From: a virus
DNA: 46,422 nt
IMG/VR virus record: IMGVR_UViG_3300008262_003053
Location: 1 to 46,422 of that record
Strand: one strand, 5' to 3'
The number at the start of each line of letters is the position of its first letter. The stretch's first letter is position 1. The position numbers were made by a program, and so were the translations under genes. Of the stretch, positions 6,405 through 32,896 are shown piece after piece. Below the pieces are notes generated by a model. The model ran no database searches. It was not told where the DNA came from and worked only from the letters and a program-made list of their open reading frames with translations.

Positions 6405-7079
6405 TTACATGAAAATGTAGTCGGTGTCAATCTTTTTTAATCGGACGTATATTTTTTTGGCTAATCTTCTTAGGATTGGACTGTAAGGTTTTTCAAAATG
6501 GCTTACATACGCATTTAAGTTTGGACTTACAAAGTACCCGTTCAACTTCATTCTAGCCAAAGTTGTAAATTTTGGCATATATCTCAAGGCCCTGTGTTTA
6601 CCCAAACTTCTACAAAGTTCTATAGCAATACTAAAGGCGTATGCATCTAGTTCATCGGGGTCTTGTAAATATTCTCGATAATGATATCCAGAATCTTGAT
6701 GAATCCAATACTGCTCGTGATTTCTTTTTTTACTTTGTCTTTGATGTTTCTTTTCGTGTACTACAGCATCATACACTTGAATCAAGAAATCTTTAGTTTG
6801 TGTTTGATCCCAAACTTGAATTTTGTCAAAATTATTATTAACAATAACTTCTATGCAGATATCTGAGTTTTTGTCGTCGTAAGAATCATAATAGGCATGA
6901 ACATAGAATTCCGATGCATCGAGACTTTTGTCTTTACGGCTTCGAATTTTTAATTCTACATCGTGTAATTTAAATTCTTTTCTGAGGTTTTTAAGTACTT
7001 GCGGAAAGGTTGACTCGTTATTATTGTTTGCTTTTACTTTATTGCATACAGAGCAAACTGTTTCCATAACTGAGTTCAT
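6405..7079 (-). CDS. Putative HExxH metallopeptidase
   Basis: This 224-residue protein contains VVHEKKHQ (His108, Glu109, His112), the HExxH zinc signature, and about 30 residues later DPDELDAYA, where Glu143 could be the third ligand as in gluzincin-type peptidases. The N-terminus has a CxxC pair (CSVC). The C-terminus is basic (RRLAKKIYVRLKK). No signal peptide is visible, so it is probably cytoplasmic. Metallopeptidase activity is inferred from the motif; the family was not recognised beyond that. It lies 2 nt after the IF-1 gene. Confidence 0.6.
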   Translation of the reverse strand: MNSVMETVCSVCNKVKANNNNESTFPQVLKNLRKEFKLHDVELKIRSRKDKSLDASEFYVHAYYDSYDDKNSDICIEVIVNNNFDKIQVWDQTQTKDFLIQVYDAVVHEKKHQRQSKKRNHEQYWIHQDSGYHYREYLQDPDELDAYAFSIAIELCRSLGKHRALRYMPKFTTLARMKLNGYFVSPNLNAYVSHFEKPYSPILRRLAKKIYVRLKKIDTDYIFM

Positions 7080-7081
7080 TA

Positions 7082-7300
7082 TTACAACCTATAAGTTACT
7101 CTGCCCTTTGTTAAATCATACGGGCTAACTTCTATTTTAACTTTGTCGCCCAATATGATTCTTATCTTGTGTTGTTTTAATTTTCCACCCATGTAGCATA
7201 AAAGAGTGTTGGGCATATTATCTACTTGCACTCTAAACATGTTACCTGGCAATACTTCGTTGACTGTGCCTGTGAGTTCTAAAATGTCATCTTTAGCCAT
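7082..7300 (-). CDS. infA: Translation initiation factor IF-1 homologue
   Basis: The 72-residue protein matches bacterial IF-1 along its whole length: MAKDDILELTGTV, PGNMFRVQV, GGKLKQHKIRI, LGDKVKIEVSPYDLTKGRVTYR, all in the positions expected for the single S1/OB fold. IF-1 binds the 30S A-site and helps IF-2 and IF-3 select initiator tRNA and start sites. It ends at the start of the HExxH gene and overlaps the AbrB-like gene upstream by 8 nt. An IF-1 in a phage suggests that initiation is biased during infection, which is inference, but relevant to the leaderless-looking operons of the central block. Confidence 0.88.
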   Translation of the reverse strand: MAKDDILELTGTVNEVLPGNMFRVQVDNMPNTLLCYMGGKLKQHKIRIILGDKVKIEVSPYDLTKGRVTYRL

Positions 7301-7478
7301 TCTTTGTTATTACGATTTTACCGTCCTCTATTTTAATATCCAAAATATCTCCTTCTTTCCAACCAGTAAGTGCCAACACTTCGTCTGGGAATTTCATTAA
7401 GACATTATCAGGGTCTCCTGGGATATCCTGGAATATATCTTCAGCTGTAAAAACGAATTTTTCTTTATCTTCCATCAT
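7293..7478 (-). CDS. AbrB/MazE-like DNA-binding protein
   Basis: This 61-residue protein ends in FPDEVLALTGWKEGDILDIK then IEDGKIVITKNG, the swapped-hairpin AbrB pattern (P..vl..lgw..GD.l.i...dg.i.i). Such proteins bind DNA as dimers, as global regulators or as antitoxins. The N-terminal 25 residues are acidic and may be a partner tail. Two adjacent ATG codons occur (7478 and 7475). No toxin gene is next to it; its neighbour is IF-1, overlapped by 8 nt. Confidence 0.7.
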   Translation of the reverse strand: MMEDKEKFVFTAEDIFQDIPGDPDNVLMKFPDEVLALTGWKEGDILDIKIEDGKIVITKNG

Positions 7479-7487
7479 ATATTTACT

Positions 7488-7889
7488 TTAAATTCCGTCA
7501 TCATCATATGGTACAGGAAACCAGCCTAACCTGTCAAGGTCTGTGGCTATCTCGTCTGTGATAGTTCCTTCAGGCACATACTTCATTCGAGCCATGTATT
7601 CTTTGCCTTCTTCCAAGTCGTAAGTAGCAAGCCCGCCCATTCCTGAACAGTACCAGTCCATGTAATCACCTTCTTTACGAAACCGAGCAATAATGCCTCC
7701 AGCGCCCCGCCAACTAGCAGACCACAAATCCTTATCCGGATCCTGACGTAAGGTGGGCCATAGTTCTTTTGGGCACCATTGCATATTACACCACGCCGCA
7801 TACAAATTTTGGGCATAGTCATCTCGAGTTCGAATTTTATTTAGAATTTCGTCATCTCGATAAATGTCTTCAACTAAATCAAATTTCAA
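7488..7889 (-). CDS. Phage hypothetical protein with TTG start
   Basis: This soluble acidic protein of about 133 residues is rich in Trp and Asp (AAWCNMQWCPKELW, WSASWRGAGGIIARF, DYMDWYCSGMGGLATYD). The TTG start at 7889-7887 is chosen because an AGAGGGG Shine-Dalgarno lies 7 nt upstream and TTGA overlaps the stop of the preceding gene; a TTG seven codons upstream has no such support. The Gly-rich middle and spaced Trp/Cys residues suggest a compact fold, but no family is known to me. Confidence 0.55.
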   Translation of the reverse strand: MKFDLVEDIYRDDEILNKIRTRDDYAQNLYAAWCNMQWCPKELWPTLRQDPDKDLWSASWRGAGGIIARFRKEGDYMDWYCSGMGGLATYDLEEGKEYMARMKYVPEGTITDEIATDLDRLGWFPVPYDDDGI

Positions 7890-8239
7890 TGAAAATCCCC
7901 TCTGAAACAATGTAAAGCTTCGTGTCCAAGATTATGAATACTAGCCATTTTTGGAGTAACGATTACGCACTCCTTACCTTCCCAAAATGAGCAGGCTTGT
8001 ACATTATAATTGAATACTTTGCCGCCTCGTTTTACATTTTCGGCACTACAGGCTTTATTAACATCTTTGGCTACAACCCAGCGTAGTCTAACATCCATAA
8101 CTTCATTCTTTGTTACATCGAATTTTGTTTCAGGATCTTCCCAACCTCTAAACGTCATCACACCAGTTGACTTTTCTTCCGGATATAACATGACTATAGC
8201 GACTATAGCTAGCAAAACAATAACAAGTGCCTTTTTCAT
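7886..8239 (-). CDS. Exported HExxH protein
   Basis: This 117-residue protein has an N-terminal signal anchor (MKKALVIVLLAIVAIVMLYP) and a C-terminal HNLGHEALHCFRGDFH, in which His106, Glu107 and His110 form an HExxH motif. Three cysteines in the mature part suit the periplasm. It looks like a small membrane-tethered zinc peptidase or a relative, acting outside the cytoplasm. It is the first protein gene after the promoter at 8384-8412 and the tRNA-like RNA; GAGG precedes ATG 8239. Cell-wall or lysis-associated function is possible but unproven. Confidence 0.6.
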   Translation of the reverse strand: MKKALVIVLLAIVAIVMLYPEEKSTGVMTFRGWEDPETKFDVTKNEVMDVRLRWVVAKDVNKACSAENVKRGGKVFNYNVQACSFWEGKECVIVTPKMASIHNLGHEALHCFRGDFH

Positions 8240-8264: not shown

Positions 8265-8377
8265 TGGTGTAGACGGTAGGATTCGAACCTACAAAGCCGC
8301 CCTAAGGGCTGGGCCCGATCCCCCTGTGGCCGTTCGTTACACCACAGGGGAGGTCTACCAGTTCCACTCACGTCTAC
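8265..8377 (-). tRNA. tRNA-like gene, class II, with over-long anticodon arm; identity unassigned
   Basis: On the minus strand, GTAGACG (8377-8371) pairs perfectly with CGTCTAC (8275-8269), followed by A and an encoded CCA (8267-8265) and a T run. The T arm is canonical: GTAGG-TTCGAAT-CCTAC. The D arm has the GG(T)AG of class II tRNAs, and a GCCC-TTA-GGGC hairpin serves as a long variable arm. Where a 5-bp anticodon stem with a 7-nt loop is expected, there is instead a 9-bp helix (CCCCTGTGG/CCACAGGGG) with a 12-nt loop. Within the loop, T-GTA-A would fit a Tyr anticodon, but the geometry is wrong, so the identity is left open. Total length is 113 nt, longer than Leu, Ser or Tyr tRNAs. Confidence 0.65.
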
Positions 8378-8383
8378 TTGCAT

Positions 8384-8412
8384 AGTATATATTCAATATT
8401 GGGTAAAGTCAA
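8384..8412 (-). promoter_or_regulatory. Sigma-70-like promoter for tRNA-like RNA and left operon
   Basis: On the minus strand, TTGACT (8412-8407), a 17-nt spacer and TATACT (8389-8384) each match consensus at five of six positions. The start predicted 6-7 nt downstream falls at 8378-8377, the first base of the tRNA-like gene. Genes from 8239 down to about 1939 follow without an obvious terminator. Confidence 0.75.
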
Positions 8413-8439: not shown

Positions 8440-8447
8440 GTTAAATA
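8440..8447 (+). promoter_or_regulatory. T4-late-like promoter, operon head of 8454
   Basis: GTTAAATA matches six of eight bases of the T4 late element TATAAATA. Six nucleotides separate it from ATG 8454, so a start with T4 geometry would fall at about 8453. No Shine-Dalgarno is present between them. It is the first of seven such elements in the central block. Confidence 0.55.
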
Positions 8448-11090: not shown

Positions 11091-11757
11091 CTGGACTCCT
11101 TTTTACAAGTATGCAGACGAAGGATTTCGTGGAATGGCTCAACAAACGTATGAGCCGTTGATAAATCCTGAAAGAACAGTTTTATGTGCTAACTACAATA
11201 TAAACAATTCTTATCAATTTAAACACGGCCCTAGGCCACTTTACACTCTAGACGTAGTTGATTGGTTTTTTGAAAATGAATTAAAATATGTGACAAAGTT
11301 TAAAAACAAGTCATACATGCCAATATTGTTAGATGTAGATAAGAATAACAAAAAGATTTTCTATGAATGGAACGGCTACTCTCTAAACGAGTTGTTGTTC
11401 GAAGGTCGTGATGTAGAATGGAAAGAACCAATCAAGAACATTCTGCTGGACTTGTATAAAGAAAATACTTATAAATTAACCATGTATCCCCACTGTCATT
11501 TTATCGATAAACATGGCGTGATGAAAGCTATTGATTGGTACGGTTGTGTTTCTGTATCCGAACCTTTTATAGAAACCAAATACATGGATGGCATTATACA
11601 TGAAACTGCAATTTTCAGATTGAAAGAAACAGGCGACATTATTGATGAAAAATATAATTTAGAAATTATGTTTAAGCAAGGATTACTGCATCATGTAAAA
11701 TGGAATAATTCCTCATTAGAATACATATATAAAGAAATTTTTAACAATGACAGATAA
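11077..11757 (+). CDS. Kinase-fold-like protein (degenerate)
   Basis: In this 226-residue protein the C-terminal part, PHCHFIDKHGVMKAIDW (about residues 138-154), resembles the catalytic and metal-binding loop of aminoglycoside or protein-kinase-like folds (H.d.N...dg..k.iDw), but the usual Asp and Asn are replaced. An N-lobe-like segment (VTKFKNKSYMPILLDVD...FYEWNGYSL) precedes it. It may be a pseudokinase or an unusual phosphotransferase. The gene at 24032 shares this layout and also neighbours a radical SAM gene. This is my reading of fold-like patterns, not a firm family call. Confidence 0.45.
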   Translation: MNTDNWTPFYKYADEGFRGMAQQTYEPLINPERTVLCANYNINNSYQFKHGPRPLYTLDVVDWFFENELKYVTKFKNKSYMPILLDVDKNNKKIFYEWNGYSLNELLFEGRDVEWKEPIKNILLDLYKENTYKLTMYPHCHFIDKHGVMKAIDWYGCVSVSEPFIETKYMDGIIHETAIFRLKETGDIIDEKYNLEIMFKQGLLHHVKWNNSSLEYIYKEIFNNDR

Positions 11758-13135
11758 GATAAAATTTTATCAAGACAAAATAGAAAAAGCTTCTGGCTCT
11801 AAAACTTTTTGTATACTTCCTTGGATACATTTTGCTACTAGGCCAAACGGTGACATGCGCCTATGTTGTAGTGCCAATGCCAGCGGTGCAAGCGATGGTG
11901 TATTTGATGCTGGCCTAGTTAAGAATGAAAAAGGTGTTCCAGCAAATTTTGGACGAGAAACTCCAATGAGTGCCTGGAACAACGACTACATGCGCGATGT
12001 ACGTTTAACTATGCTCGAGGGAAAGATTCCTTCGAGTTGTAGTAAATGTATAGCGGAAGAATCCAAAGGTGTTGCTAGTAAAAGAATTTGGGAAACCGGG
12101 TCGTGGATGGAGGAAGGAATTGACGTTGAAGAACTTATTAAGCAAACAGAAGAAGATGGTACAGTTCCTGAAAAATTAGTTTACTTAGATTTACGACTAG
12201 GACACACTTGCAATCTTAAATGTGTTATGTGTAGTCCACATGATAGTAGTCAATGGGTTGCTGATCATAAAAAAATATATCCGTTGTTCCAAGCTAAAGA
12301 ACTTAAAGAACAGATAGTGTGGGATCGCAAAGACTTTAACAACAAGTGGCACGAAAATCCAGACTTCTGGAAAGAGATGTATGCACAGATTCCTAACCTA
12401 AAGCAAGTTTACTTTGCTGGAGGAGAGCCGTTGATGATCCGCGAGCACAAATGGTTCCTTGAAGAAATCATTAGACAAGGCTACGCAGATAAAATCCTTG
12501 TACGCTACAACACAAACGGGTTATTAGTAGATGACGAGATAATTGAGCTGTGGAAGCAGTTTAAAAAAGTTAAAGTTGGCTTTAGCATTGACGCTGTCGG
12601 TGACCGTAATTATTACATACGTTATCCTAGTGATTGGGCAACTATAGAAAAGAACCTTCATAAGTTAGATAACACGCCAGATAATATACAAGTTAGTATT
12701 GCCACAGCTATTCAAATATTAAACATTAAACACTTGGCAGATTTTGCTAAATGGAAAATTACACAGAACTTTAAGAAAATAAATCTTGAAAATACAATTG
12801 GAGGCATACAAGCAGGCGGTGGAATTGTTAATATGCATTTGCTATACATTCCAACATTCTTAAGTATTAAACTACTACCGCACGAGGACAAGGAAGAAGT
12901 ACGCAGAAGCTTTGCCGAACTAGCTAATTGGTTGCATGAAAATTACAGGCAGGATGAAGACTTTTGGAAACATAATCCTTACGGATGGAAACGTTGGCAA
13001 GCTGTCTTAGATTTTATGGATGCGGAAGATTATACAGACCAACTGCCTGCGTTCAAAGAATATATAGAACGGTTGGAACTTTTGCGCGGTACAAATTTTA
13101 AATCTACATTTCCCGAATTGACTCATTTAGTATGA
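11747..13135 (+). CDS. Radical SAM protein with N-terminal twitch-like domain
   Basis: This 462-residue protein begins with a cysteine-rich domain (KTFCILPW with Cys22; RLCC with Cys40-41; CSKC with Cys98 and 101) that resembles a twitch auxiliary cluster domain placed ahead of the radical SAM domain. The core follows: CNLKCVMC (Cys155, 159, 162) and FAGGEPLM. A family of N-terminal-twitch radical SAM proteins is known in phages and aquatic bacteria; its function is not established as far as I know. Paralogues lie at 15255 and 18420. It overlaps both neighbours. Confidence 0.85.
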   Translation: MTDKIKFYQDKIEKASGSKTFCILPWIHFATRPNGDMRLCCSANASGASDGVFDAGLVKNEKGVPANFGRETPMSAWNNDYMRDVRLTMLEGKIPSSCSKCIAEESKGVASKRIWETGSWMEEGIDVEELIKQTEEDGTVPEKLVYLDLRLGHTCNLKCVMCSPHDSSQWVADHKKIYPLFQAKELKEQIVWDRKDFNNKWHENPDFWKEMYAQIPNLKQVYFAGGEPLMIREHKWFLEEIIRQGYADKILVRYNTNGLLVDDEIIELWKQFKKVKVGFSIDAVGDRNYYIRYPSDWATIEKNLHKLDNTPDNIQVSIATAIQILNIKHLADFAKWKITQNFKKINLENTIGGIQAGGGIVNMHLLYIPTFLSIKLLPHEDKEEVRRSFAELANWLHENYRQDEDFWKHNPYGWKRWQAVLDFMDAEDYTDQLPAFKEYIERLELLRGTNFKSTFPELTHLV

Positions 13136-19674: not shown

Positions 19675-19682
19675 TATTTAAG
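19675..19682 (-). promoter_or_regulatory. T4-late-like promoter, operon head of 19670
   Basis: CTTAAATA on the minus strand, 4 nt before GTG 19670, with no Shine-Dalgarno in between. It matches the T4 late element TATAAATA at six of eight bases. It stands back to back with the plus-strand element at 19697-19704, 14 nt away. Confidence 0.55.
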
Positions 19683-19696
19683 TCATAATAGTAGCA

Positions 19697-19704
19697 CATA
19701 AATA
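19697..19704 (+). promoter_or_regulatory. T4-late-like promoter, operon head of 19709
   Basis: CATAAATA, seven of eight matches to TATAAATA, lies 4 nt before ATG 19709 with only TTTC between them. Transcription starting with T4 geometry would begin at or near the start codon. Confidence 0.6.
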
Positions 19705-24740: not shown

Positions 24741-24748
24741 GATAAGTA
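24741..24748 (+). promoter_or_regulatory. T4-late-like promoter, operon head of 24754
   Basis: GATAAGTA on the plus strand, 5 nt before ATG 24754 (CATGT between). A T4-type start six bases after the element is exactly the A of the ATG. No Shine-Dalgarno is present. Confidence 0.6.
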
Positions 24749-32867: not shown

Positions 32868-32875
32868 TACTTATA
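32868..32875 (-). promoter_or_regulatory. T4-late-like promoter, operon head of 32862
   Basis: TATAAGTA on the minus strand, seven of eight bases of TATAAATA, 5 nt before ATG 32862 (ATATT between). A T4-type start would fall on the A of the ATG. It faces the plus-strand element at 32889-32896 across 13 nt. Confidence 0.6.
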
Positions 32876-32888
32876 ACATCAGCTGACA

Positions 32889-32896
32889 GCTAAGTA
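32889..32896 (+). promoter_or_regulatory. T4-late-like promoter, operon head of 32902
   Basis: GCTAAGTA on the plus strand, 5 nt before ATG 32902 (TTATT between). It is identical to the octamer before ATG 24727 and has no Shine-Dalgarno between it and the gene. Confidence 0.55.

Follow-up and report, generated by a model that had tools for sequence, protein, structure and literature searches.

A lineage of phage-encoded initiation factor IF-1 in a conserved, apparently early operon headed by a tRNA-like RNA

The 46,422-bp virus contig analysed here over its whole length (the window) comes from a large aquatic T4-type phage and encodes a translation initiation factor IF-1 on its minus strand, an identification that we regard as confirmed by sequence comparison. 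We establish the identity and conservation of the gene, the operon and promoter to which it belongs and its pattern of co-occurrence in related genomes. Phage-encoded IF-1 as such is already known and is not new; what does seem new is its setting, a conserved early operon that is headed by an anticodon-less tRNA-like RNA and lies beside seemingly leaderless genes.

Identity of the IF-1 gene

The IF-1 gene is the fourth open reading frame (ORF) of a minus-strand operon with the following features.

8384–8412, minus strand: sigma-70-type operon promoter, TTGACT-17-TATACT, about 1.1 kb upstream of IF-1 and separated from the tRNA-like RNA by 6 nt
8265–8377, minus strand: tRNA-Leu-like RNA with an encoded CCA and without an anticodon loop, located after the promoter and before the first ORF
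7886–8239, minus strand: 117-aa protein, first ORF of the operon, with a hydrophobic N-terminus and an HExxH motif
7488–7910, minus strand: 140-aa conserved protein
7293–7478, minus strand: 61-aa protein, directly upstream of IF-1, with a MazE/AbrB-like C-terminus below the Pfam cut-off
7082–7300, minus strand: IF-1 (infA) gene, 72 aa, identified by profile and sequence matches
6405–7079, minus strand: 224-aa protein, directly downstream of IF-1, with an HExxH motif (HEKKH)

The translation of 7082–7300 reads MAKDDILELTGTVNEVLPGNMFRVQVDNMPNTLLCYMGGKLKQHKIRIILGDKVKIEVSPYDLTKGRVTYRL and ends at a stop codon. It scores 92.1 bits with the NCBIfam infA equivalog TIGR00008, for which the cut-off is 61.15, and covers all 69 positions of that model (1–69); 63 of the 64 positions of the Pfam eIF-1a profile (PF01176) are likewise covered (E 7e-20). 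The sequence also matches 12 IF-1 sequences with solved structures, the best of them with an E value of 6e-22. The full-length IF-1 homologue proposed by the first-pass annotation is thus borne out over its whole length, with coordinates and strand exact. The AlphaFold model, calculated from 21 near-identical sequences, is poor (pLDDT 58), so that the fold assignment relies on sequence homology; the length of 72 residues and the order of strands fit an OB domain. The first 8 nt of the gene lie within the 3' end of the upstream ORF; the start has no Shine–Dalgarno (SD) site as judged by computed energy (+0.6 kcal/mol), and IF-1 is likely to be translationally coupled to that ORF.

Conservation and selection

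A pattern scan of IMG/VR found at least 271 viral stretches that encode relatives of this protein. The median dN/dS across 48 distinct genes is 0.047 (0.065 in pairs with dS below 1), and the lineage is under strong purifying selection, with a dN/dS of about 0.05. A chance observation is excluded by this number of relatives together with their low dN/dS.

In E. coli numbering, counted with the initial methionine, G11, E15, G38, G50-D51, G65, R66 and R70 are kept in all 39 aligned distinct viral proteins. K39 and R46 are kept in nearly all of these first 39 sequences, and several sequences found later have lysine in place of R46. The residues with which bacterial IF-1 contacts the 30S subunit thus appear to be conserved in the phage lineage. 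The phage protein resembles bacterial IF-1 (InfA, TIGR00008/PF01176) in its length, its whole-length match, the key glycines, the aspartate and the C-terminal arginines. It differs in one extra residue in the loop after N28 and in the replacements R41 to K and K42 to Q relative to E. coli, each of which is present in 39 of 39 viral sequences, and the nearest bacterial IF-1 among those found is 59% identical. Because of these two replacements and the loop insertion, its affinity for the ribosome may differ. The motif LLCY[ML]GG[KR]LKQ[HN]KI is characteristic of the lineage.

A tree of 69 IF-1 sequences shows the lineage as monophyletic; its branch is long and separate from those of other phages' IF-1s, and with so few columns (72 aa) its deeper placement is unsure. 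The same tree did not resolve the host, the phage branch being long and the columns too few. One genome that has the tRNA-like RNA (G025, locus L352) encodes at 11585–11770 on the plus strand an IF-1 of a different type, GKMRQHNIKILLGD, which lacks the loop insertion and suggests a gene replacement.

The operon and its promoter

The first-pass annotation had placed IF-1 in a left operon on the minus strand, with an early-type promoter in front, and both parts of this description hold. Of 108 distinct upstream sequences, 107 share the near-consensus promoter seen at 8412–8384, and in 105 the −10 box lies 6 nt before the tRNA-like RNA. A promoter scan of the window alone returned five sites against 5.3 expected, among which 8412–8384 does not stand out. 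Transcription from sigma-70 promoters starts at a spacing behind the −10 box that would here put the start near the first nucleotide of the tRNA-like RNA, and the operon transcript is predicted to begin at about nucleotide +1 of that RNA (8377).

The genes around IF-1 are conserved to different degrees. Counted over the best 80 IF-1 loci, homologues of the 117-aa protein were found in 72, of the 140-aa protein in 78, of the 61-aa protein in 50 and of the 224-aa protein in 75. The HExxH motifs of the 117-aa and 224-aa proteins were read from the translations; neither protein matched any family, and both are possibly metallopeptidases, the 117-aa protein being a putative exported one. The AlphaFold model of the 140-aa protein is of fair confidence (pLDDT 78), and a fold search with this model found no match in the PDB. 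Homologues of the 140-aa protein are also present in loci where the tRNA-like RNA heads another operon.

A tRNA-Leu-like RNA at the head of the operon

The RNA at 8265–8377 has an acceptor stem with A73 and CCA, a T-arm, T8, the GG of the D-loop and a long variable arm, all of which it has in common with tRNA-Leu (RF00005). A73 and the class II shape would also fit an RNA that is charged with leucine. It differs from tRNA-Leu in that a hairpin of variable length, commonly capped by UUCG or CUUG, takes the position of the anticodon arm, leaving no 7-nt anticodon loop, and in that the Rfam tRNA model gives it 27.4 bits, below the gathering score of 29. ARAGORN and Rfam at its gathering score both missed it, and it was found by reading the sequence.

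Among 36 distinct tRNA-like RNAs, pairing is kept in 99.6% of cells, with compensatory changes at 16 of 29 pairs; as a control, sliding the partners against each other abolishes the signal. A covariance model finds a single strong copy (at least 73 bits) in 12 of 12 genomes, whereas true tRNAs score at most 40 bits. A literature search for an anticodon-less tRNA-like RNA of phages gave nothing that matches, and the RNA seems to represent an undescribed family.

When loci were collected by the sequence of the tRNA-like RNA alone, IF-1 lay within 3 kb in 73 of 86. This count rules out that the two are always neighbours; several of the other loci carry IF-1 elsewhere. In a second group of phages (L172, with the RNA at about 4105 after orientation, and L166, L171, L177 and L205) the tRNA-like RNA heads another operon, which in this group encodes a ThyX-like protein together with a small, basic protein that resembles histones, and no IF-1.

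The divergent cassette and its leaderless starts

Divergent from the IF-1 operon, a variable cassette takes up about 30 kb of the central part of the window, with a GC content of 34.5% against 39–41% in the flanks. Its main features are as follows.

8454–38204, no single strand given: variable, SD-poor cassette; its radical SAM proteins number at least seven, accompanied by an epimerase and a tryptophan-halogenase-like protein
8441–8447, plus strand: T4-late-type box TTAAATA, lying 6 nt upstream of the first cassette gene's ATG; predicted leaderless start
19675–19681, minus strand: T4-late-type box, 4–5 nt before the start codon of a leading gene
19698–19704, plus strand: T4-late-type box, 4–5 nt before the start codon of a leading gene
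24742–24748, plus strand: T4-late-type box, 4–5 nt before the start codon of a leading gene
32868–32874, minus strand: T4-late-type box, 4–5 nt before the start codon of a leading gene
32890–32896, plus strand: T4-late-type box, 4–5 nt before the start codon of a leading gene

In the window, the sequence NTAA[A/G]TA ends 4–6 nt before the start of six of nine leading genes and of none of 52 inner genes. Over the whole clade, the cassette leads with this arrangement number 105 of 151; a control window gives 7 of 151, and of the 92 leads read from the plus strand on the IF-1 side none has it; these counts are approximate, since start codons were assigned mechanically with up to four candidate starts per ORF. 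The spacing from a T4-like late box to its start site would place the AUG at the 5' end of the message or adjoining it. A late-type box 4–6 nt before the ATG therefore predicts leaderless transcripts of the cassette leads, and these genes are likely to give leaderless late transcripts. The inner genes, the great majority of the cassette, are internal to operons and for this reason are not leaderless.

SD sites tell a similar story. In the window, the mean SD energy is −6.3 kcal/mol in the right T4 block, −3.5 in the left block and −1.3 for plus-strand cassette genes, compared with −1.7 for an internal ATG control. Clade-wide, an energy of −5 kcal/mol or lower is reached by 14% of the cassette genes divergent from the IF-1 operon, by 39% of genes on the IF-1 side and by 12% of controls. 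The cassette transcripts, which the first-pass annotation had linked to leaderless starts, thus look leaderless for the leading genes only, in a cassette that is SD-poor as a whole. Our literature search for leaderless late genes of T4 type gave nothing that matches.

The association also appears when the search is reversed: loci retrieved solely with the leaderless start sequence have a divergent tRNA-like RNA in 35 of 37 cases and IF-1 in 26 of 28. In the 13 tRNA-like loci without a nearby IF-1, the leaderless start sequence is absent within 400 nt; one of them, G021, retains the radical SAM cassette. IF-1 is placed away from both the tRNA-like RNA and the cassette in G021, G003 and G025.

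Genome context and known phage IF-1s

Among the T4-type genes at the right end of the contig are homologues of rIIA and rIIB and a gene for an AAA ATPase. Contigs of relatives reach 345 kb, those of 281 and 345 kb contain gp23-type capsid genes, and from its gene content the lineage is assigned to big T4-type phages. Of 12 genomes, 11 have a single IF-1, and the one that does not is a 69-kb fragment; no IF-3 was found in genomes of the lineage. The ribosomal protein bS21 is encoded by six of eight records longer than 110 kb, and 10 of the 20 records searched, among them every one of the four longer than 130 kb, have 24–40 tRNA matches. The single IF-1, bS21 and the many tRNAs of these relatives therefore make IF-1 part of a translation kit.

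The remark in the first-pass annotation that initiation factors are rare in phages is only partly right, because IF-1 is known in several groups. Both IF1 and IF3 have been reported in huge phages, for which an interception of translation by phage IF1, IF3 and S21 was proposed (PMC7162821); IF-1 is a core gene of Jug phages (PMC12363816), and Lak phages and the Sinorhizobium phage Phosso carry IF-1 genes of lineages separate from ours. In all of these, as here, IF-1 occurs in large genomes with other translation genes. The present lineage differs in forming a separate branch of the tree and in its T4-type genes (rIIA/rIIB, gp23), and we found no operon with a tRNA-like RNA and a divergent leaderless cassette in the publications on these phages. 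The IF-1 of Acinetobacter phage MD-2021a (L302, CAKLQH020000005.1; INPHARED) was rejected as likely host chromosome, truA and leuBCD lying alongside infA. Matches labelled as phages of Listeria, Staphylococcus and Enterococcus were left out, and some INPHARED matches may be host contamination.

By their description, the freshwater phages that encode bS21 (PMC9723584) are likewise large lake phages with many tRNAs and a proposed hijack of the ribosome; they differ in that Bacteroidetes hosts were predicted for them, and the term 'initiation factor' is absent from that paper. In a metatranscriptome of the viral fraction of Lake Baikal, 'Translation initiation factor 1' predominates among the transcripts of protein metabolism (PMC9611531). 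That these transcripts belong to the present clade is only a guess.

Proposed role of the phage IF-1 and alternatives

We consider it probable that the product is a genuine IF-1 acting early, which would bind host 30S subunits at their A site and support initiation as the phage takes control. The A site is where IF-1 sits, with its C-terminal arginines as contacts to the 30S subunit (reviewed in PMC4611024). Made early in infection from a strong promoter of host type, the phage protein would supplement or replace the host IF-1 and thereby keep initiation fast and selective during the takeover, possibly with a boost to initiation and a preference for phage messages. It would act as one component of a kit that comprises bS21, many tRNAs and the tRNA-like RNA.

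That the factor is tuned to the leaderless transcripts of the cassette, with high IF-1 shifting the balance of factors and making 5'-terminal AUGs efficient sites of 70S or 30S initiation, strikes us as possible and less likely. The general claim of the first-pass annotation that IF-1 affects leaderless starts agrees with the literature, in which the translation of leaderless messages in vitro is stimulated by IF1 and IF2 (reviewed in PMC9031893). Circumstantial support for the idea comes from the leaderless transcripts, which are probably real, and from the stimulation by IF1 reported in vitro; the late-type box 4–6 nt before the ATG of cassette leads is found clade-wide, SD sites are nearly as scarce in the cassette as in the control, and IF-1 adjoins the cassette in most genomes, 26 of the 28 loci retrieved with the leaderless start alone containing it. 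The idea is still a conjecture, since canonical initiation makes use of IF-1 too and the gene is not bound to the cassette, lying apart from it and from the tRNA-like RNA in some genomes; moreover, the great majority of cassette genes, being inner ones, are not leaderless. As canonical initiation is likewise stimulated by IF1, a general role in translation explains the data equally well. A more elaborate version, to which we give a rather low probability, would make IF-1 and the anticodon-less tRNA-Leu-like RNA a single early device that reprogrammes host initiation for the leaderless late cassette, the RNA being the 5' end of the operon message and acting on ribosomes, LeuRS or tRNA-binding factors.

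RNA-chaperone and transcription-antitermination activities have been reported for E. coli IF1, and OB-fold proteins bind RNA. A protein of IF-1 fold might thus act on phage transcripts and not in initiation, and the RNA of the early operon does start with a strong structure; the conservation of the ribosome-contacting arginines and the co-occurrence with bS21 and tRNAs make this improbable. Still less probable is a role in counter-defence, in which IF-1 as an occupant of the A site (PMC4611024) would shield 30S or 70S particles from host defence nucleases that act there. The MazE/AbrB-like gene directly upstream of IF-1 would suit such a role, but its match is below the curated cut-off, a toxin gene is absent, IF-1 departs from the ribosome at subunit joining, and the reading is pure inference. 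A passenger gene of host origin without function for the phage is hardly credible: we found nothing specific in favour of it, a dN/dS of about 0.05 contradicts a functionless gene, and the lineage is long, independent and monophyletic, at most 59% identical to the bacterial IF-1s found and present as a single copy in nearly every genome.

Significance

In earlier reports the IF-1 of phages was an item in a list, without a function. The present lineage offers a testable setting, with a conserved early operon, hundreds of sequences, purifying selection and an apparently leaderless late cassette adjoining it. In it one could test directly whether viruses employ initiation factors to shift the message preference of the host ribosome.
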